This document shows, piece by piece, positions 33,126-43,028 of a stretch of 51,780 bases of DNA. Each line of letters opens with the position of its first letter. The first letter of the stretch is position 1. Where the stretch lies: the NCBI GenBank assembly GCA_016936235.1, contig JAFGPK010000070.1, positions 1 to 51,780 of the forward strand. The letters run 5' to 3'. This DNA is from Candidatus Fermentibacteraceae bacterium (GTDB lineage: Bacteria > Fermentibacterota > Fermentibacteria > Fermentibacterales > JCC-6). The position numbers and the translations under genes were made by a program. The notes under the pieces were generated by a model. That model saw only the letters and a list, made by a program, of their open reading frames with translations. It was not told the DNA's origin and did no database searches.

Positions 33126-36100
33126 ATGGCGGACCGTGCCGGGATCGAACCTCCCGGGGGCTGGGTTAAGAACGAGTTCTTCTGGGACAGTGTGTTCTCC
33201 GAAATGCTTACCTCGCTCACCGCGCGGCGTCTGACCACGATCGGTGGTCTGTGCGGCTCCTCCATCTCGTTCGCGGCGGCGGCTGTTCACAGGCTGGCGG
33301 GGCCCACGGTGCTTGTCGCCCCTTCCGTATCACAGGCCGAGAGCATCAGGGACGACCTCAGGAGCATCCTCGGGGATGTCCTGTACTTCCCCGCTTACGA
33401 GACCCTGCCCTTCGAAGGTGAACCTGCCCATCCAGGAGTGATCTCCGACCGCGTCGAGTGCATGGCCGAGCTTAAATCCGGCAGCAGCAGGGGCATAATA
33501 GTCCTGCCGGCTTCGGCCCTTGTGAAGAAAGTCCCTCCACCTGAGAATTTCAGCTGCTTCAGGCTGTACCGGGGCATGAGGCTCTCCATCGACACCCTCG
33601 AGGCCTGGCTGCTGGCTGCTGGATATCTGAGGGAGGACGGAGTGTGGGAGCAGGCGAGGTGGGCCAGGAGGGGCGGCATAGTCGATGTGGGCACCTACGG
33701 CATGGAGAACCCTGTAAGGCTGGAGTTCTTCGGTGACGAACTGGAATCGCTCCGCTCCTTCGACCAGAGATCACAGAGGAGCATAAGGAACCTCGTCGAA
33801 TGCCTCCTGCTGCCGGCCAGGGAGGTCATACTCACTCCCGAACACTGGAACAGGGCAATGGAAGTCGTACCCGAGGATCACCAGCTCAGCGAGAAGCTCT
33901 GGACCGCCAACGATTTCCCGGGTATCGAGCACTATCTTCCCATCTTCCTCGACAGGTGCGTCAGCATACTGGACTATGTGGGCGAGGACGGCACCGTCAT
34001 TCTTTCCGATCCCGAAGGGATAATCGGGAACATGGAAGAAGCCATGACCTTCTACAGGGAAAGCTACGACCCGGGGAAGGTACCCTTCGGGTTCAGCAGG
34101 ATCTTCTTCGGGATGGACGAGGTGAAGGGCTGTCTCGACAGTCGGGGCAGAGTGGTCCATTTCCTTCCGTTGCCCCGGGGAGAAGTCGATGTCCATTACA
34201 GGATCCTTCCCCAGATAAGCTTCACCGGACACAGGGGGGAGATGCTCAGGCAGTTCCGGGATTACCTGGGACAGGGCAGCAGGATATCCGTCCTGTGCGA
34301 CTCCAGGGCGGAGGAGGAGACTTTTCTGGAGCTGGTGCCCGAGGACCTTGATCTGGATACGGAGGTACTCTCCATCTCCCAGGGCTTCAGGATGCCCGAA
34401 CAGGGACTGGTGGTCATGGCGGAAAGGGGACTGCTCTCGGGGAGACGCAGACCCGAGAGGGTGAGAAGGTACAGGGGGGGAGAGGGCCTGGCTGATACGA
34501 CGGAGATATCGCCGGGTGACCTTGTGGTTCACAGGCGGTACGGAATAGGGATGTTCACCGGACTGGAGCAGATAGAGACCTCCGGGACGATCCTTGACTG
34601 CCTGGCAATTGAGTACAGGGACGGCGACAGGCTTCTTGTCCCGATGCACGAGATAGGTTCGGTCCAGAAGTTCATGGCTCCTGACAGGGTAAGCCCCAGA
34701 CTGGATAAGATCGGGGGGGATTCCTGGGACAGGCGAGTCTCGGCGGCGCGAAAGAAGGCCACGGAGATAGCAGGCAGGCTGGCTTCCCTTTACGCGCAGA
34801 GAAGGGCCATGAGCCGGGAACCTCTGGAACCCCCCGGACACCACGTGGCCGCCCTTGCCGAGAGCTTTCCCTACGAGGAGACCCAGGATCAGAAGAAGAC
34901 CATAGAGAAGGTGATGCAGGACTTCAGAAGCGATTCCCCCATGGACAGGCTGGTTTGCGGCGACGTAGGCTACGGCAAGACGGAAGTTGCTATACGGGCT
35001 GCATTCAGGGCGGTGGATGCAGGACTGCAGGCTGCAGTGCTGGTTCCCACCACGGTACTCGCAGAACAGCATTACTTCACTTTCAGGGACAGGCTGGCGG
35101 AATTCCCGGCCAGGATAGACATGCTCAGCAGGTTCAGAACGCCGGCTGAACAGAAAAAGACCATAGGTGACCTGGCCCTTGGCGAGGTTGACGTGATAAT
35201 CGGTACCCACAGGCTTCTCCAGAAGGATGTCCGCTTCCACAGACTGGGTCTTCTCGTGATAGACGAGGAACATCGTTTCGGCGTCCGCCAGAAGGAGTAC
35301 CTCCGGGAACTGCGTACCGGTGTGGACACACTGGCCATGACCGCGACCCCTATTCCAAGGACCCTTCACATGGCTCTTTCAGGTTTCCGGGACATCTCCA
35401 TCATCTCCACGCCCCCCAGGGACAGGTACCCCATTCACACCGAGCTGACGCCGTTCAATCCGGGCATCATCGCCAGAGCCGTGAAGAGGGAGCTGGAGAG
35501 GGATGGTCAGGTCTTTTTCGTCCATAACAGGATACAGTCCATAGAAGGGGTGAGGGAGAAGCTCCAGTCGCTGCTGCCCAGGGTCAGTATAGTGGTGGCC
35601 CACGGCAGGATGAACCCCAGGCAGCTTGAGAACGTCATGCATGATTTCATGGAGCACAGGTACGACGTTCTCCTCAGCACTTCGATAATCGAGTCCGGTC
35701 TCGATCTCCCAAGGGTGAACACCATGGTGATAGACAACGCCCACATGTTCGGTCTTGCCGACCTCTACCAGCTGAGGGGAAGAGTGGGTAGAAGCCATCA
35801 TCAGGCCTACTGCTACCTGATAGTGCCGGAAGGGAAAAGGCTGAAGCCCGAGGCCGGGAACCGCCTTGACGCAATCAGGAGGTTCACCGAACTGGGTTCA
35901 GGCTGGAACATAGCCATGCGCGATCTCGAGATAAGGGGAGCCGGAGAACTGCTGGGAGCCTCGCAGCACGGTCAGATGGTCTCAATCGGCTATTCGCTCT
36001 TCGAAGAACTGATCAGGGAAGAGGCCGCTCAGCTCAAGGGAGTCGACAGGGGCGACATGTCCGATGTCCGGGTGGAGATACCGGGTGATTCTTACATACC

Positions 36101-36494
36101 TCCGTCCTATATCCCGGATGTATCCGAGAGGGTCCGCATATATCGCAGCTTCTGGAGAGCCGAGAGCGAGAGGGACATCGACGGGTGGACGGAGTATCTG
36201 AAGGACCGGTTCGGGGAGCCGGAGGATCCTGTGAGGAACACGGTCCTCCGGGCCAGGATGGGATACCTGGCACGGGAATCAGGTATGGAGGAGGTCGTTG
36301 TCAGCGGCTCGACGGGGAGGCTGGTCTTCAGACCCGGGGCGAGACTTTCCGATCCGCTTCCCGCCTCCGCCAAGGTCAGGGTGACCGCTGAGAAGACCGG
36401 TCGTGTAGTACTGGAAGTGGCCCTGAAGGGTCTGTCCGATCAGGAGAAGATCGCGAGGCTGCTGGATCTGATGAGGTTCCTGGCTCCGGTCTGA
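33126..36494 (+). CDS. mfd: Transcription-repair coupling factor Mfd
   Basis: An 1122-residue helicase-like protein. ATG 33126 is preferred; the open frame extends to 33066 within the previous gene. The N-terminal UvrB-like module has YFPAYETLPFEGEPAHP. The RNA-polymerase-interacting domain lies near residue 460 (GDLVVHRRYGIGMFTGLEQI). The motor carries Walker A GDVGYGKTEVAIRAAF (~612-627), VIDEEHRFGVRQ (DEEH) and TATPIPRTLHMALSG. After the helicase come QLRGRVGRSHHQAYCYL and the C-terminal TRCF domain. It releases stalled RNA polymerase and recruits UvrA to lesions. It ends about 108 bases before the four-gene chaperone series. Confidence 0.96.
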   Translation: MADRAGIEPPGGWVKNEFFWDSVFSEMLTSLTARRLTTIGGLCGSSISFAAAAVHRLAGPTVLVAPSVSQAESIRDDLRSILGDVLYFPAYETLPFEGEPAHPGVISDRVECMAELKSGSSRGIIVLPASALVKKVPPPENFSCFRLYRGMRLSIDTLEAWLLAAGYLREDGVWEQARWARRGGIVDVGTYGMENPVRLEFFGDELESLRSFDQRSQRSIRNLVECLLLPAREVILTPEHWNRAMEVVPEDHQLSEKLWTANDFPGIEHYLPIFLDRCVSILDYVGEDGTVILSDPEGIIGNMEEAMTFYRESYDPGKVPFGFSRIFFGMDEVKGCLDSRGRVVHFLPLPRGEVDVHYRILPQISFTGHRGEMLRQFRDYLGQGSRISVLCDSRAEEETFLELVPEDLDLDTEVLSISQGFRMPEQGLVVMAERGLLSGRRRPERVRRYRGGEGLADTTEISPGDLVVHRRYGIGMFTGLEQIETSGTILDCLAIEYRDGDRLLVPMHEIGSVQKFMAPDRVSPRLDKIGGDSWDRRVSAARKKATEIAGRLASLYAQRRAMSREPLEPPGHHVAALAESFPYEETQDQKKTIEKVMQDFRSDSPMDRLVCGDVGYGKTEVAIRAAFRAVDAGLQAAVLVPTTVLAEQHYFTFRDRLAEFPARIDMLSRFRTPAEQKKTIGDLALGEVDVIIGTHRLLQKDVRFHRLGLLVIDEEHRFGVRQKEYLRELRTGVDTLAMTATPIPRTLHMALSGFRDISIISTPPRDRYPIHTELTPFNPGIIARAVKRELERDGQVFFVHNRIQSIEGVREKLQSLLPRVSIVVAHGRMNPRQLENVMHDFMEHRYDVLLSTSIIESGLDLPRVNTMVIDNAHMFGLADLYQLRGRVGRSHHQAYCYLIVPEGKRLKPEAGNRLDAIRRFTELGSGWNIAMRDLEIRGAGELLGASQHGQMVSIGYSLFEELIREEAAQLKGVDRGDMSDVRVEIPGDSYIPPSYIPDVSERVRIYRSFWRAESERDIDGWTEYLKDRFGEPEDPVRNTVLRARMGYLARESGMEEVVVSGSTGRLVFRPGARLSDPLPASAKVRVTAEKTGRVVLEVALKGLSDQEKIARLLDLMRFLAPV

Positions 36495-36541
36495 TGAAGG
36501 CAAAGGTAGCTATCAAGGGGCTGCATCCCTTATATTTCTGG

Positions 36542-36602: not shown

Positions 36603-38234
36603 TTGTCTTATTTCAAGTTCTCGTGGAGTTGCGTGATCGTTCCGTCGCTTCTGCTGTTTATCTCCTGCGGCGGCGAGGACCCCGGAATTCTCGCGAGGGG
36701 CAACGGAATACAGGTCACCGGGGATGATTTTCACCGGGAATTCGAGAGGCTGCTGCCGGACGATCAGGTGAGCGTACTGGAACCCGGCGGGAAGTTCGGC
36801 CTGGTGACCAGGCTGGCGTACCGGGAGATGCTCCTTGAAGAGGCCCGTGAGATGGAGCTGCCTGACATGGACAGGTGGATGGAGATATCCGAGGATGTAT
36901 GGATGGCTCAGAAGTGGCTGGAGATGGAACTGGAAAGAATATACGACGCCGGACTGGACACCGCAGGCATTGACGGCATGATGTCCATTCTGGTGTCTGT
37001 CAGCGCGGTGCTGATGAAGGACAGCGCTCAGGCCATGGACGTCCTGGAAGAATGGAGGTCCGGTTCTCCTTCCCGACCCGCGGCCGGTATGGCCCTGGCC
37101 CCATGGAACCATGAAGGCTCAAGCTATTTCGAATTCAAAGGCAGCTTCTTCCTCCTCCATTCAGGCAACCCCGGTTTTGCCTCGGCCCTGATGGAACACG
37201 CCGGAGTCGGACCCGCGGCTATCCCTTATTTTGGAGCCTGGGCAGTATTCACCATTGACACTGTCCGTACAGCGGTACCCGAGTACAGCGTTCCTGCGGC
37301 GGCCAGGTACTACATAAGCTCCAGGCTGTCAGCGAAGAGGGAAGTGACGGTGCTCTCCGGGGCGGTGGCGCAGCTGGCGGAGCATATTGCGCTTACAGAC
37401 GGAGAGTATTCCTTCATCGACCTCGAAGGGCTGGATCCCGACCTTGTTCTGGCGGTATTTCCCCGGGGCGGTTTGACCGCCGGGGATGTGATCGCCGATG
37501 CCCGTCTGGTGGATGATGATAACTTTTTCAACGGAGTCCCCGAGGATTTCCTTCCCTACCGGTTGCCGAGGCCCATGCTGGATCCCGAAGTGGACCTGTG
37601 GATCTACGTCGAGGGAATAGCGGAGATCATGAGGCAGGCGGATCTGGCCGCGGAGGATGGTGTTTCCTGGCCGGAGCCGGAGAGGGAACTGACCGTCACC
37701 GACCAGGTTCTCAAGTACCACGTCCTGGGCCGGGAGACGGAGGCTGACACGGCGGCGGCCATGGAGTTCTACCGCGAGAACTCACACCTTTACGATATTC
37801 CGGAACTGCGCTCCATAGAGGTGGCCTACGTTCCCTTCGACTGGATGCCCGAGGGCGAGGTCAGGACATTCGATGACCTTGAGAGGTACTACAGCCATAC
37901 CGGCGAGGATGGTGTGCTCATACCCACGGATCCCTGTCCCATGGAGCTCTACGGTGGTTTCGGCGAAGCCGTGTTCAGTGCGCCGGAGAGCGTTTTCACC
38001 GGCCCGGTGCAGTATCCCGGAGACGAGGTGTTCGTCTTCTTCCGCGTGGTTGATGTCATTCCCGCCGGCATGGACGATCCTATGGTGATAATGCCCTTGC
38101 TAATGGAGGACTGCAGGCAGGCAATGGTCAGCAGACGCCTCGAGGACTATCTTCTGGAACTCTGGGATAGCTACAGTATAGAGATTGACAGCGGGCTGGT
38201 AAGAGAACTGGACCCATGGGAGTCCGGCTACTGA
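36603..38234 (+). CDS. Lipoprotein of SurA/PrsA-like build, no clear PPIase domain
   Basis: A 543-residue lipoprotein. TTG 36603 follows GGAAGAG and gives a signal ending in FISCGG. The first ~110 residues (ILARGNGIQVTGDDFHREFE, then RLAYREMLLEEAREMELP) resemble the helical SurA_N/PrsA chaperone segment, with 'V.....F' and 'll...A' features. A second helical block lies near residue 370 (DQVLKYHVLGRETEADTAAA). I do not see the conserved parvulin residues that the downstream genes have. It is probably a periplasmic folding factor or a diverged relative anchored by lipid. It is followed by three more PpiC/SurA-type genes, all in one direction. Confidence 0.75.
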   Translation: MSYFKFSWSCVIVPSLLLFISCGGEDPGILARGNGIQVTGDDFHREFERLLPDDQVSVLEPGGKFGLVTRLAYREMLLEEAREMELPDMDRWMEISEDVWMAQKWLEMELERIYDAGLDTAGIDGMMSILVSVSAVLMKDSAQAMDVLEEWRSGSPSRPAAGMALAPWNHEGSSYFEFKGSFFLLHSGNPGFASALMEHAGVGPAAIPYFGAWAVFTIDTVRTAVPEYSVPAAARYYISSRLSAKREVTVLSGAVAQLAEHIALTDGEYSFIDLEGLDPDLVLAVFPRGGLTAGDVIADARLVDDDNFFNGVPEDFLPYRLPRPMLDPEVDLWIYVEGIAEIMRQADLAAEDGVSWPEPERELTVTDQVLKYHVLGRETEADTAAAMEFYRENSHLYDIPELRSIEVAYVPFDWMPEGEVRTFDDLERYYSHTGEDGVLIPTDPCPMELYGGFGEAVFSAPESVFTGPVQYPGDEVFVFFRVVDVIPAGMDDPMVIMPLLMEDCRQAMVSRRLEDYLLELWDSYSIEIDSGLVRELDPWESGY

Positions 38235-38277
38235 AGGCCCGCCTGCCGATAACGAGAACGGAATATTGGAGGATGAT

Positions 38278-39093
38278 ATGAGAATGGTCCTTTTAGCATC
38301 AGCGATGCTTGTCCTGCCTGGAACGGTATTCGCCCAGGTCCTTGCCACAGTCGACGATGCCCAGCTGACCTGGGATGATGTCCTTTACATGATAGGCGGT
38401 GAACAGAACGTACCGTACCTCGGGATAACTTCAGAGGCAAGCGCCGTTGAGGTCCTCCAGTCATGGGTGAGGGAGGAGATACTGGTTCGGGCCGCGAAAA
38501 GCTCCGGGCTGGAAACTGACCCGGAGGTACAGCATCTGCTGGAACAGGCTGAAAGGCAGATCCTCCTCGAGGCGTACATGTCGGAACTGGTCGCGGGACT
38601 CCAGCCTTCGCAGCTGGAGATAGAGAACTACGTCGACGAATGGCTCAGCACCTACCGGAAAAGCGCCCATGTAAGGCACATAGTGGTTGATAACCTCAAC
38701 CTCGCCAATTCCATCCTTGCCAGGGTCAGGGCCGGCAGCGATTTCGCCTCCCTGGCCGAGGAATACTCCATGGGCCCCAGCTCAGCCAACGGAGGTGACC
38801 TTGGCTGGATCACCCGAGGACAGTCTGGTTTTATGGCCTTCGATGAGGCCGCATTCAGGCTTGGTGAGGGAGAGGTCAGCGATGTCGTGGAGACCGGTGC
38901 AGGGTATCACATCATCAAGGTGGTGGAAACGGAGCCTCTTTCTCCCGAGCCCACTCTGGATGAGATCAAGCAGGTGGTGGCCATGGAACTGACCCAGGTC
39001 ATGCAGGAAGAAGCCATAATGGCCAAGGTGGAGGAGCTGGAGGTCAACCACGAGGTGAACCTCTACCCGGAAAGGCTCCTTGAACAGCTTTAG
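38278..39093 (+). CDS. Parvulin-type (PpiC) peptidyl-prolyl isomerase, exported
   Basis: A 271-residue secreted protein. ATG 38278 has GGAGG five bases upstream; the open frame begins at a TTG 12 bases earlier. The signal peptide ends VLPGTVFAQ. A SurA_N-like helical part (DVLYMIGGEQ onward) precedes a good rotamase domain at about residues 125-220: AHVRHIVVD, FASLAEEYSMGPSSANGGDL, GWITRGQ, AFRLGEGEVSDVVETGAGYH, then IIKVVE. It should assist folding of outer-membrane or secreted proteins. The last bases overlap the next gene by 14. Confidence 0.9.
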   Translation: MRMVLLASAMLVLPGTVFAQVLATVDDAQLTWDDVLYMIGGEQNVPYLGITSEASAVEVLQSWVREEILVRAAKSSGLETDPEVQHLLEQAERQILLEAYMSELVAGLQPSQLEIENYVDEWLSTYRKSAHVRHIVVDNLNLANSILARVRAGSDFASLAEEYSMGPSSANGGDLGWITRGQSGFMAFDEAAFRLGEGEVSDVVETGAGYHIIKVVETEPLSPEPTLDEIKQVVAMELTQVMQEEAIMAKVEELEVNHEVNLYPERLLEQL

Positions 39094-39991
39094 CGGTGAC
39101 AGACGCCTGATATGGGCCGTCTGGGCACTGGCTGCGGTGGTGGCCGCCTCCACCGCCGCGGTACTCCTGGGCGCCGGCAGAAGGCTGGACGCAGTTCCGG
39201 TGATGGAGATACCGGAGGTGGATGAAGGTCCCGCCGACGGCATGGTCGCCGCCAGTGTCGGGGGTACCGCAATCTATCACGAGGATCTTGCCATGGTCGG
39301 GATAGACGATCCGTCGGTGCTGGGGGAATGGGTCGAAGACCAGCTCCTTGCCGACCTGGCAGTGGAAGCCGGCCTCGAGAACCCCCGCCGGAGCCGTCTG
39401 CTCCAGGAAAGGGTCAGACAGCTCTACCTGAGGGACGAGCTGCTATCCAGGACATACTCGAGGGTACCTTTCCCTGACAGCCTGGATGTGATGACGTTCA
39501 TGCAGGCGGACAGTCCCGCCTACATGGTAGAGAGGCACTACTGGCAGATACTCGTGGCGGACGGTCAGCTGGCGGATTCGATCCATCAGAGGCTGTCACG
39601 GGGGGAGAATTTCCAGCTCACTGCGGAAAACCTGTCTCTGGGGCAGAAGGCCGGTATCGGGGGAGACCTGGGCTTCATGACCGCGGGTGAACTCATGGCA
39701 TACGGAATCCCCAGGGACATGGCTCTGATTGAAGGTCTCGGCCGGCCGGTGGAGAGCTCCTACGGCTGGCATATTCTGATGGTCGACGAGGTGAGATCCC
39801 TGGAGGATACCGCGCGGGTGATGTGGGCCGTGGCCGACGATATGCACAGGCAGATGCTGCGGACCGCCAGGGACAGCCTTCTTGAACTCGCATCGCTGGA
39901 GAGGGATATCTACATCGATCCATCGCTGATTGACGGCGGTGCTCCGGAGACGGAAGTCAGCGGAACTACCCAGGGAAGAGGGACGCAATGA
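39080..39991 (+). CDS. Membrane-anchored PpiC-like protein
   Basis: A 303-residue protein starting at TTG 39080 inside the previous gene, with GGAAAGG upstream. A single N-terminal helix (LIWAVWALAAVVAASTAAVL) anchors it in the inner membrane. Residues ~155-245 look like a diverged parvulin domain: MVERHYWQILVADGQ, SRGENFQLTAENLSLGQKAG, IGGDLGFMTAGEL and PVESSYGWHILMVDEV. Several residues normally conserved in active isomerases differ, so a chaperone role without catalysis is possible. It overlaps the next gene by four bases. Confidence 0.82.
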   Translation: MNSFSGDRRLIWAVWALAAVVAASTAAVLLGAGRRLDAVPVMEIPEVDEGPADGMVAASVGGTAIYHEDLAMVGIDDPSVLGEWVEDQLLADLAVEAGLENPRRSRLLQERVRQLYLRDELLSRTYSRVPFPDSLDVMTFMQADSPAYMVERHYWQILVADGQLADSIHQRLSRGENFQLTAENLSLGQKAGIGGDLGFMTAGELMAYGIPRDMALIEGLGRPVESSYGWHILMVDEVRSLEDTARVMWAVADDMHRQMLRTARDSLLELASLERDIYIDPSLIDGGAPETEVSGTTQGRGTQ

Positions 39992-41223
39992 GCCTTATGA
40001 TACTTGCCGCCCTTGTGGCGGGATTCGTCCCGCTGGAGAGAACGGTGGCCGTGGTGGAGGACAACCCCATTCTGCATTCACAGGTCATGGAGCTGCTGGC
40101 TGGAATGGGAATTGCACCCGAGGGTGATTTCGAAACGGTGTCCGGGACCCCCGGCTACCGGGAAGCTCTCCAGGAGCTGGTGGAGAACAGGCTGCTTGTC
40201 CAGGCCGGTATCGATGCCGGATACTACCCCGCTGACGAGGAGATACAGGCCCTGGTGACGGAGGAGTTGGAGAACAACCCCGATATGGCCTCCCTGGACC
40301 CGGTCTACCTTTCCCGCTATCTGGCGGAGAACCAGGCGGCGCAGGTATTCCTGGGAAGGAAGATTCAGGCGGCATTCTCCGAGATGCCCATGAGTCCCGA
40401 GACGTTCCTCGCCGCGAATGCGGACCTGGTGGAAGAGATCGTAATGCCCAGGGGAGTATCCTGGATCTACCTTCCCGTTCTCCCCTCCGGACCCGAATAC
40501 CAGTCGGCGGTGGAGGAGTTGCTCGCGCTGAGGGCCAGGATAATGGCCGGCGAATCCTTCGAGGAACTGGCCATGGAATACTCCGACGACGGTTCAGCAG
40601 CCGGAGGCGGATACCTGGGGACCTTCGGCCCCGGGGAGATGACCTTCGCCTTCGAGGATGCCGCCTTCGCCCTGGAACCGGGCGAGGTAAGCCAGCCTGT
40701 GTCGACTCCGTTCGGTGTCCATCTCATCAGACTTGACAGCCGTGAGGACGACGGCAGGATATCCGCCAGCCATATACTCAGAGTGGTCCCGGTCGACAGT
40801 ACGGACATTCAGGACACCGTCGTCGAAGCATGGGGGATCATGGGCGGGATCGAGACCGGAGAGCTCTCCTTCGAAGAAGCCGCATCCCTTTACAGCCTTG
40901 ACAGGACCTCCGCCTCAAGTGGAGGGGACATGGGAGTGGTTCCCCTGAGATTATGGCTGCCGGCGGTAGCCCTCGGCATCGAAGACCTGGCTCCGGGCCG
41001 CTGCTCCGATCCCATCATCCTCGCGGAAGCAGGAGCCGTGGTCATAGTGCAGCTGCACGAGAATACGGGCCGGGTGGACTGGAGCTCCTACACCCCCGCT
41101 GAGCTGAACGGCCTTGTCCAGCAGGTGATCTATCAGGATACCTACTATGAGATGGTGGATTCGCTCATGGATGAGATACCCGTGGTCTTTCTCCTGGAAG
41201 ATGATGGCGCAATTGAGGATTGA
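39988..41223 (+). CDS. surA: SurA-like periplasmic chaperone with two parvulin domains
   Basis: A 411-residue protein. It begins by ATGA overlap with a short hydrophobic leader (MSLMILAALVAGFVPL), then a SurA_N-like region (VAVVEDNPILHSQVMELLA; ALQELVENRLLVQAGIDAGY). The first parvulin domain (about residues 140-250) has RARIMAGESFEELAMEYSDD, GGGYLGTFGPGEM and VSTPFGVHLIRLD. The second (about 255-365) has RISASHILRVVP, FEEAASLYSLDRTSASSGGD and MGVVP. Domain order matches E. coli SurA, the main outer-membrane-protein chaperone. The symbol is used for the overall architecture; orthology should be confirmed by phylogeny. Confidence 0.85.
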   Translation: MSLMILAALVAGFVPLERTVAVVEDNPILHSQVMELLAGMGIAPEGDFETVSGTPGYREALQELVENRLLVQAGIDAGYYPADEEIQALVTEELENNPDMASLDPVYLSRYLAENQAAQVFLGRKIQAAFSEMPMSPETFLAANADLVEEIVMPRGVSWIYLPVLPSGPEYQSAVEELLALRARIMAGESFEELAMEYSDDGSAAGGGYLGTFGPGEMTFAFEDAAFALEPGEVSQPVSTPFGVHLIRLDSREDDGRISASHILRVVPVDSTDIQDTVVEAWGIMGGIETGELSFEEAASLYSLDRTSASSGGDMGVVPLRLWLPAVALGIEDLAPGRCSDPIILAEAGAVVIVQLHENTGRVDWSSYTPAELNGLVQQVIYQDTYYEMVDSLMDEIPVVFLLEDDGAIED

Positions 41224-41473
41224 CGTATTCCTGAAGCTTACGGGTATCTTCAGGACCCGCTCCTCCGCGGGCAAGGCGGCATCCGCAGGTTACGTATCCA
41301 TGGATGGAAGGAAACTGAAGTCGTCCCATTCGGTTGGCAGAGGTGACGTCCTTCACATAGTGAAGCCCGACGGGACAGCCTTTTCCATACGCGTGGAGGA
41401 GATCCCGGAAAACCGCCAGGTATCCCGCAGGGACCGTCAGGAGTATTTCACTATCCTTGGAGACCCGGACTGA
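41201..41473 (+). CDS. Small S4-domain RNA-binding protein
   Basis: A 90-residue protein. The S4 fold is RIDVFLKLTGIFRTRSSAGK, followed by AASAGYVSMDGRKLKSSHSV and GRGDVLHI. This is the arrangement of Hsp15/RlbA-type and other free-standing S4 proteins that bind structured RNA. ATG 41201 or 41204 is likely; GGAAG lies just before. The gene starts inside the 3' end of the SurA-like gene (23-base overlap) and its TGA is merged with the ftsE start. Proteins of this type bind stalled 50S-peptidyl-tRNA complexes or act on ribosomal RNA; the precise role here is open. Confidence 0.8.
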   Translation: MMAQLRIDVFLKLTGIFRTRSSAGKAASAGYVSMDGRKLKSSHSVGRGDVLHIVKPDGTAFSIRVEEIPENRQVSRRDRQEYFTILGDPD

Positions 41474-42156
41474 TGGTGGTCTCCTTCCAGAACGTCAGCA
41501 GGTTCTACAACGACTGGCCGGCTCTCGAGAGGATAAACCTTCAGCTGGAACAGGGCGAATTCCTGGTGATCTCCGGGCCCAGCGGCGCCGGCAAGACTAC
41601 ACTCTTCAGACACATCTGGATGGGCGACCTGCCCAGTTCCGGCACCGTCGAAGTGGCCGGCTACAGTTCCGACCGGCTGAGCAGGAAGGAACTCCCGCTT
41701 CTCAGGAGGAAACTGGGAATAGTGTTCCAGGATTTCCGTCTGCTCCCCGAAAGGACCGTATACGATAACGTGGCACTTCCCCTGCAGGTAGCCGGAACAT
41801 CCCCCAAGGCGGTCAGGAGGAGGGTCTTCTCCCTCCTGGCTGAGATGGAGCTCAACCACAGGAGAGGCTCCTACCCCCACGAGCTTTCAGGCGGCGAGCA
41901 GCAGCGAGTCGCCATTGCGAGGGCGATGGTCGCACATCCCGTGATACTCCTCGCCGACGAACCCACGGGCAACCTGGACCCGGAGGTTTCCAGGAAGGTC
42001 ATAGAACTCCTGATGGAGATAAACAGGTCCGGGACAGCCGTGGTTCTCGCCACTCACGACCCCAGGCAGGTTCCCGCCGGTGTGGCCAGGTTCATGTATC
42101 TGGACAGGGGACACCTGGTGAATCCCAGCTCCTGGGACGGCTACGAGCAGCTGTGA
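41473..42156 (+). CDS. ftsE: Cell-division ABC transporter ATP-binding protein FtsE
   Basis: A 227-residue ATPase. Walker A ISGPSGAGKTTLFRHIW (~33-49), the Q-loop VFQDFRLLPERTVYDNVALP, the ABC signature ELSGGEQQRVAIARA and Walker B VILLADEPTGNLDP are intact, with the switch His in ATHDPRQ. FtsE works with FtsX to activate peptidoglycan hydrolases at the septum. Start ATG 41473 shares a base with the S4 gene's stop, and the end overlaps ftsX by four. Confidence 0.95.
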   Translation: MVVSFQNVSRFYNDWPALERINLQLEQGEFLVISGPSGAGKTTLFRHIWMGDLPSSGTVEVAGYSSDRLSRKELPLLRRKLGIVFQDFRLLPERTVYDNVALPLQVAGTSPKAVRRRVFSLLAEMELNHRRGSYPHELSGGEQQRVAIARAMVAHPVILLADEPTGNLDPEVSRKVIELLMEINRSGTAVVLATHDPRQVPAGVARFMYLDRGHLVNPSSWDGYEQL

Positions 42157-43028
42157 TACACCTCATCCGCAATGCGTTCCGCGAGGGTCTCATGAACATC
42201 AGGGGCAAGCTGGCCACCTTCCTCATCACGCTGCTCATGGTAAGTCTTTCGTTCATGGTCTTCGATATCTTCCTGGTGGTCTCCTGGAATCTCGGGACCG
42301 TACTCCGCAACGAGCAGGAGAACGTGGGGATAGAGATATTCCTGAAGGACACCGTAAGCGAGACTGATGCCGTGAACCTGGCGGACCTCGTTTCGGAGAT
42401 GGAGGGCGTAAGGTCCGTCTATTACGTTTCTCCGCAGGAGGCCGAGGCCATCTTCAGGGCGGACATGCCCGAGCAGGCGGACCTCCTGGCGCTCCTTGGC
42501 CCCCAGTTCCACCTCCCGGCTTCCATTCAGGTCACGCTTCACCCCGAATACAGGACCTCAGAGAGGGTAGGCGGCGTGGCCAGGACGGTATCGGGAATGG
42601 ACGGCGTGGATGACGTCATATACGGCAAGGAGTACCTTCCGGGACTGACAAGGGCGGTGGACATCCTGGAGAAGCTCGTCATCCTTGCCGGCCTTGTTCT
42701 GGCGGTGAGCCTCTCACTGGTGGTCGCGAATACCGTGAGGCTGGCCATAGCCAAGAGGGCGCTCACGGTTCAGATAATGAGTATAGTAGGGGCACCGGGA
42801 TGGTTCGTTAGGATGCCCTTCATCGGAGAGGGGCTCGTAACGGGAACGGCGGGTTCAGCCGGAAGCCTGCTTCTGACTGGGGCTGTATCATGGATGCTTT
42901 CGTCCAGCGTGCCCCACCAGTTCCTTCCCGGAGACTGGATAGCCCTTGTGCTGGTCCTGGGCGCGGGCTCGGGAGCGGCTGGCAGCTGGATCGGGATGAG
43001 GTCGGGAGTCCCCAAGCCCCGGCGATAG
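42153..43028 (+). CDS. ftsX: Cell-division protein FtsX
   Basis: A 291-residue permease-like protein with GTG start 42153 overlapping ftsE. One N-terminal helix (KLATFLITLLMVSLSFMVFD) is followed by an extracytoplasmic domain of ~125 residues (VGIEIFLKDTVSETDAVNLA; YYVSPQEAEAIF). Three further helices follow near residues 175, 225 and 265. VRLAIAKRALTVQIMSIVGA, the conserved FtsX 'EI.....GA' cytoplasmic loop region, is present. FtsEX carries a mechanical signal to murein hydrolases. The M23 peptidase encoded at 31732 is a candidate target, by inference only. Confidence 0.93.
   Translation: MIHLIRNAFREGLMNIRGKLATFLITLLMVSLSFMVFDIFLVVSWNLGTVLRNEQENVGIEIFLKDTVSETDAVNLADLVSEMEGVRSVYYVSPQEAEAIFRADMPEQADLLALLGPQFHLPASIQVTLHPEYRTSERVGGVARTVSGMDGVDDVIYGKEYLPGLTRAVDILEKLVILAGLVLAVSLSLVVANTVRLAIAKRALTVQIMSIVGAPGWFVRMPFIGEGLVTGTAGSAGSLLLTGAVSWMLSSSVPHQFLPGDWIALVLVLGAGSGAAGSWIGMRSGVPKPRR

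Follow-up and report, generated by a model that had tools for sequence, protein, structure and literature searches.

The gene block analysed here occupies positions 36603-41223 of a 51,780-nucleotide (nt) stretch of DNA from Candidatus Aegiribacteria (Fermentibacterota), hereafter the window, meaning the whole stretch that was analysed. It consists of four consecutive open reading frames (ORFs) encoding SurA/PrsA-class envelope proteins, which we call P1 to P4. The closest described systems are SurA, PrsA and PpiD, together with proteins of the Bacteroidota β-barrel assembly machinery (BAM). SurA of E. coli (PDB 1m5y, 9hg5) has an N-terminal helical domain, two parvulin domains and a C-terminal helix. 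PrsA proteins are lipoprotein foldases with one active parvulin domain. The lipoprotein foldase gene prsA2 of Clostridioides difficile adjoins mfd (PMC6288519). PpiD combines an N-terminal membrane anchor with one inactive-looking parvulin domain. In Bacteroidota, the Bacteroides SurA Bt3848 co-purifies with BamA (PMC12578637), and BamJ, BamK and BamM are proteins of peptidyl-prolyl isomerase (PPI) fold tied to outer-membrane assembly (PMC12578637, PMC12611786).

The members of the block resemble these proteins without matching any of them fully. P4 shares the SurA arrangement, which it also has in common with the PPI enzyme (PPIase) 8hm3, but it has lost active-site histidines, sits with three relatives, and scores 65.2 bits against the NCBIfam SurA equivalog, whose cut-off is 394. 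Because this cut-off is missed we call P4 SurA-like only; Bt3848 is likened to it by description, not by sequence. P1 resembles the PrsA foldases, C. difficile PrsA2 included, in being a lipoprotein of predicted SurA/PrsA fold encoded beside mfd, but it has two degenerate parvulin-like domains in place of one active domain, and it is expendable. P3 has the anchor and the single inactive-looking domain of PpiD but is 303 residues long, against 626 for the PpiD model and 663 for 8zht, and the PpiD model NF008054 finds no match in it at E-values up to 1. As a set of PPI-fold proteins with a likely tie to outer-membrane assembly, the block recalls BamJ/BamK and BamM. BamJ and BamK differ in being reported as surface lipoproteins, and they are likened to P1 by description, not by sequence.

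The gene row itself is real, conserved and ordinary in kind. The surprise is that P1 has been lost repeatedly, each time with the same constrained scrap of its DNA spared. The features on which this rests are:

36515-36540, forward strand: island just 3' of mfd, CATCCCTTATATTTC; probable promoter of the whole block
36603-38234, forward strand: P1, lipoprotein assigned by modelling to the SurA/PrsA class; both of its parvulin-like domains are degenerate, and the genus has lost it three times
38151-38192, forward strand: 42-nt cis-element in the P1 3' end (codons 517-530), kept in P1-less genomes; probable internal promoter of P2-P4
38278-39093, forward strand: P2, periplasmic single-parvulin PPIase (Rotamase_3, E 2e-21; alignments)
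39080-39991, forward strand: P3, membrane-anchored, one degenerate parvulin domain (Rotamase_3, E 1.4e-7)
39988-41223, forward strand: P4, SurA-like chaperone with two parvulin domains (phmmer and structure matches)

Repeated loss of P1

Our sample of the genus comprised 19 genomes, including the window's own, of which 17 could be scored for P1; G005 is masked at the site and G003 has neither mfd nor P4 in place. The 12,000 N in the G005 stretch (L136) explain a false open frame of 24,166 residues, and there is no giant gene. P1 is present in 6 of the 17 (G000, G001, G008 in part, G009, G016 on two contigs, and G018) and gone from 11, which retain P2-P4. It is present in all scorable relatives outside the genus.

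On a 25-row mfd tree this distribution requires three changes; the tree omits G003, G005, G019, G024 and G026, in which mfd is absent, masked, incomplete or placed on a different contig. Three changes are likewise required on a 19-row tree of P2, P3, P4, FtsE and FtsX (omitting G003, G005, G008, G019, G021, G023-G027 and G029), on which placing all P1-less genomes in one clade is rejected (log-likelihood 314 worse; approximately unbiased test, p-AU 0.0002). P1 was thus lost by three independent events: one in the ancestry of G004, G006, G007, G014 and G017, one in G012, and one in that of G002, G010, G011, G013 and G015. The deletion break points differ, with the P1 ribosome site and start kept in G012 and not in the third group. 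In G012 a short open frame of about 50 residues (L107, 5255-5521) fuses the P1 start to its last codons.

A relocated copy was sought in the 11 P1-less genomes by whole-genome search (E 0.001), and there was no match besides remnants in G012 and G013. We also considered a single ancestral loss followed by regain. The P1 tree, although weak in its N-terminal version, groups G000 with G001 and G009 with G016 and G018; vertical descent is favoured because these groupings agree with the other gene trees. Sequence comparison thus presents P1 as an expendable accessory and P2-P4 as the constant core.

This pattern bears on the proposal, made in the first-pass annotation, of a relay in which inner-membrane, soluble and outer-lipid members pass one client in sequence to BAM. 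The different anchors within one operon, and the SurA-BamA contact in Bacteroides (PMC12578637), speak for such a relay. A relay that needs P1 cannot be general, because P1 has been lost three times without loss of P2-P4. Nor are the anchors conserved more widely, since in the phylum of G035, a genome outside the order, the second protein is a lipoprotein. Strains that have P1 could still use a relay, yet as a principle for the whole group it fails, and we regard it as improbable.

A spared and constrained element at the P1 3' end

Each P1-less gap between mfd and P2 retains about 42 nt of P1 codons 517-530 (CTTCTGGAACTCTGG...TATAGAGATTGAC). Their reading frame is broken by stops in the first P1-less group and in G011, and it lacks a usual in-frame start codon upstream in G002 and G015; short open frames persist in G010, G012 and G013. 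A pattern describing the element has one match each in 16 of the 19 genus genomes and in two further genomes, always at the place of the P1 end. It is missed in G003, G005 and G008, the three genus genomes for which there is no sequence at the site. The reversed pattern, used as a control, has two matches in 42 genomes.

The same DNA is frozen where P1 is intact. Codon identity over codons 517-529 in P1-bearing genomes is 0.95, against a mean of 0.45 at conserved residues (permutation p 0.00015; four of the six P1-bearing genus genomes, or five with the C-terminal part from G016), and the best synonymous windows elsewhere reach 0.70 in P2 and 0.62 in P4. In the two multi-member P1-less groups, element identity exceeds that of the 4-fold sites of neighbouring genes (0.874 vs 0.623 and 0.940 vs 0.721; four of the five members of the first group, G014 being omitted, and four of the six P1-bearing genomes). 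The element was picked because it looked conserved, a choice for which sliding windows across the mfd-P2 gap served as control: in both groups the best 42-nt stretch falls on the element, at 0.888 (mean 0.588) and 0.940 (mean 0.694). G014 was left out of this gap alignment, as was G012, which stands alone in its event. Taken together, the alignments demonstrate constraint on the 42 nt at the DNA level.

A neutral scar, at which deletions happen to stop and whose leftover has not yet decayed, would be compatible with a sample as small as three events. It would not account for conservation above 4-fold sites in both multi-member P1-less clades, nor for the same codons being frozen in intact P1 genes, and we consider it very improbable. 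That the tail of the P1 gene doubles as a control element of the downstream genes, the same DNA being spared in all three losses, is the explanation we favour with reasonable though not high confidence.

Structure of the encoded proteins

P1 is a 543-residue protein with a TTG start behind a GGAAGAG ribosome site. Its lipobox ends at Cys22, which with Gly23 is invariant across 12 aligned sequences. Sequence comparison yielded only one sub-threshold rotamase match, Pfam Rotamase_2 at E 0.013, and we therefore modelled the structure. The AlphaFold2 model, built from a 17-row alignment, has a mean predicted local distance difference test (pLDDT) score of 87, and its best Foldseek matches in the PDB are SurA, the YRVJ-YACD model 9a7d_B, PrsA, LIC12922 and PEB4. 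In VIA-align 2, residues 22-531 align to SurA with Z 10.0 and a root-mean-square deviation (rmsd) of 12.4, a value which indicates that the domain arrangement of P1 differs from that of SurA. Two domains are delimited in the model:

36972-37286, forward strand: first parvulin-like domain of P1 (residues 124-228), degenerate; PpiD parvulin 2kgj, Z 6.8
37788-38075, forward strand: second parvulin-like domain of P1 (residues 396-491), active-site residues lost; 3gpk_B aligns to residues 398-491 with Z 8.5 and an rmsd of 2.8 across 89 residues; site of the Rotamase_2 match

Both active-site histidines are absent from P1, and the parvulin active-site motifs are not found in the alignment. Judged by its model, P1 is a SurA/PrsA-class protein with two degenerate parvulin domains. 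Its earlier description as a lipid-anchored protein without clear parvulin residues was right as to the lipobox and the absent motifs, and is to be amended in that two degenerate parvulin-like domains are present. Weak matches to the C-terminal part of P1 in other ORFs of 292-584 residues (L029, L030, L032, L034) suggest that the order has more proteins resembling P1. Separately, the contigs of G008 and G016 (L102, L112, L113) break near the same spot in P1, at about residues 231-245, a possible sign of strain variation or of a spot that is hard to assemble.

P2 is a 271-residue protein with a plain signal peptide. It keeps both active-site histidines, the GGD motif and the Met/Phe pocket (RHIV, GGDLG, M-F and GYHII in the window), and its highest-scoring models are PRK00059 and those of PrsA type. 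P3 has an N-terminal hydrophobic anchor; its first active-site histidine varies (Q, E or H), GGD is kept and GWHI mostly kept, and the pocket is lost. P4 has 411 residues and is presumably soluble; its short hydrophobic N-terminus is an atypical signal sequence in which basic residues are lacking. Its phmmer match to SurA 1m5y starts at residue 17 (E 1e-18). The AlphaFold2 model, from 23 rows, has a pLDDT of 87.9 and a C-terminal helix at 370-396; it matches 8hm3_B with Z 18.5 and SurA 1m5y_C with Z 15.7, residues 16-403 aligning to SurA. Of its two Rotamase stretches, the first lacks the first histidine and the second lacks the last.

Pfam rotamase models exceed their cut-offs once in P2, once in P3 and twice in P4. 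Active-site residues were read on alignments, with the roles of residues taken from general knowledge. Since these residues are lost in domains of P1, P3 and P4, most of the block looks chaperone-like more than catalytic. The first-pass annotation had described four consecutive SurA/PpiC-type envelope proteins after mfd, comprising in the last three places a soluble parvulin, a membrane-anchored degenerate parvulin and a two-domain SurA-like protein, from genes that overlap. This description is borne out: the ORFs lie there and all belong to the SurA/PpiC/PrsA class, the last three have the properties just given, with overlaps of 14 nt (P2/P3) and 4 nt (P3/P4), and the structure prediction called for by that annotation returned SurA-like models for P1 and P4 alike.

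Conservation of the gene row

The block is flanked by the following genes, the names ftsE and ftsX being from our reading of the sequence:

33126-36494, forward strand: mfd, upstream neighbour (Pfam TRCF, CarD_TRCF_RID, UvrB_inter and helicase domains); position kept in relatives
41204-41473, forward strand: small protein between P4 and ftsE, which we take to be S4-type from its sequence rather than from a family search; same position in relatives
41473-42156, forward strand: ftsE, downstream neighbour; same position in relatives
42153-43028, forward strand: ftsX, downstream neighbour; same position in relatives

The contig scan for P4 relatives, which reached Fermentibacterota, gave named relatives in Candidatus Aegiribacteria, Sabulitectum, Fermentibacter and other Fermentibacteria (24 loci). 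The order M23-mfd-(P1)-P2-P3-P4-S4-ftsE-ftsX-yajC-def-fmt is identical in all relatives within the order whose contigs cover the block. Rather than being scattered, which would have spoken against a functional grouping, the genes stay together throughout the order, and the four-gene row is far beyond chance. Sequencing errors may be why mfd, P1, ftsE, ftsX and def are spread over several frames in L159 (Sabulitectum silens JCC-6).

Outside the order, with lipoboxes read by eye, G035 has mfd followed by a 601-residue lipoprotein with two parvulin domains, a 327-residue lipoprotein, a 440-residue SurA-like protein and, after one further gene, ftsE and ftsX. In G038 mfd is followed by a 588-residue lipoprotein and a 428-residue SurA-like protein, and in G034 by a 337-residue lipoprotein parvulin and a 428-residue SurA-like protein. 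This distant neighbourhood of mfd, lipoprotein parvulin and SurA (loci L129, L130 and L134) extends, judged by coordinates, to two more genomes, and in the phylum of G035 mfd lies beside parvulin genes in three of four genomes. Among the ten genomes outside the order, no such neighbourhood was seen in the stretches fetched from G032, G033, G036 and G037. Because mfd with a lipoprotein parvulin recurs in distant genomes and in C. difficile, P1 is best read as having descended, with decay, from an ancient lipoprotein that was linked to mfd and had two parvulin domains. Literature searches that covered neither subscription papers nor preprints found no description of the block under SurA/PPIase clusters, the phylum, mfd-SurA or SurA paralogs, and none of promoter-bearing gene remnants.

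Discussion

We propose, as the probable explanation, that the block is a BAM-feeding envelope-chaperone operon whose core, P2-P4, would be driven in part by the cis-element in the end of the expendable P1. P4 would most likely be a SurA-like carrier of unfolded outer-membrane proteins to BamA, P2 a PpiC/PrsA-type isomerase of the core, P3 a PpiD-like holder anchored in the membrane close to the Sec exit, and P1 a lipid-anchored accessory that several lineages have discarded. The window's own genome has three Omp85 matches, one of them adjoined by an OmpH/Skp gene (L194, L196, contig C61), and these, together with the Bacteroides SurA-BamA co-purification noted above, make the assignment of P4 as carrier to BAM likely, with P2 and P3 as its probable isomerase and membrane-side holder.

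The block might instead supply general secretion foldases, serving secreted or periplasmic proteins at large in the manner of PrsA and not mainly outer-membrane barrels. The models that P2 fits best are PRK00059 and those of PrsA type, the neighbours include ftsEX, def and fmt, and C. difficile has no outer membrane. The mfd-prsA neighbourhood of that species (PMC6288519) points the same way. Against this, P4 matches SurA and the PPIase 8hm3 over nearly its whole length, and the genome has Omp85 and Skp, so that we find general foldases rather unlikely.

As to expression, the post-mfd island would drive P2-P4, most likely together with a second element in the last P1 codons. The island, a probable promoter of the whole block, carries TATATT and occurs as CTTATATT in 16 of 16 aligned genus members (as TTTATATT in G011); besides the 42-nt element it is the second conserved island of P1-less mfd-P2 gaps. 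Deletions of P1 would have spared the element since the core needs it, those removing it being selected against. The element is probably a promoter: by eye it contains two short blocks 16 nt apart, TGGAAC-N16-TATAGA.

Several observations weigh against these proposals. A sigma-70 scan does not call the pair of blocks, or the element at all, and loose matches to the element spelling are not enriched in the window's own genome (15, vs 33 for the reversed control). Since P1-less operons retain the post-mfd island, they could strictly do without a second promoter. Among Sabulitectum-type relatives (8 of 10 P1 rows), synonymous conservation likewise peaks at the P1 end (p 0.004), but another window comes close to it, and the freeze may reflect the P2 ribosome site. 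Finally, the P2 nucleophile position, where Cys or Asp is expected and which we equate with the Cys of PpiC, is Gly in the Aegiribacteria rows shown; in eight rows of other genera it is Cys in six and Gly in two (G019, G022). Gly at this position may weaken catalysis, which makes the catalytic activity of P2 in Aegiribacteria unsure.

The element could also be real without being a promoter, acting as a regulator-binding site, a transcript-processing site or an enhancer of P2 translation. The constraint is demonstrated without knowledge of the element type, and the negative promoter scan fits such a role. But single-strand folding of the element is unremarkable (z -0.6 to -1.5), an Rfam search gave no match, and the element ends about 86 nt before the P2 start, far from the P2 ribosome site; we hold this alternative to be possible though tentative. 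Three narrower identities were considered and set aside: a structured RNA (unsupported by Rfam and folding), an extracytoplasmic function (ECF) sigma reading of GGAAC (dropped, there being no regulon), and a common promoter motif (unsupported by the sigma-70 scan and the own-genome count).

P1 illustrates a lipid-anchored SurA relative without recognisable parvulin sequence, of a kind that annotation easily misses. Its repeated loss is a natural experiment in an uncultured phylum, separating the SurA-class chaperones that are always kept (P2-P4) from one that is expendable. Repeated gene loss has laid bare, in the spared 42 nt, an unusually clean example of DNA with two uses, as coding sequence and probably as a regulatory site, and comparing P1-bearing with P1-less genomes suggests a general route to promoters buried inside genes. 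If our explanation is correct, the scrap left in P1-less genomes would be a fossil of coding sequence whose sole present role is that of a promoter, or a regulator site, acting on the SurA-class core.

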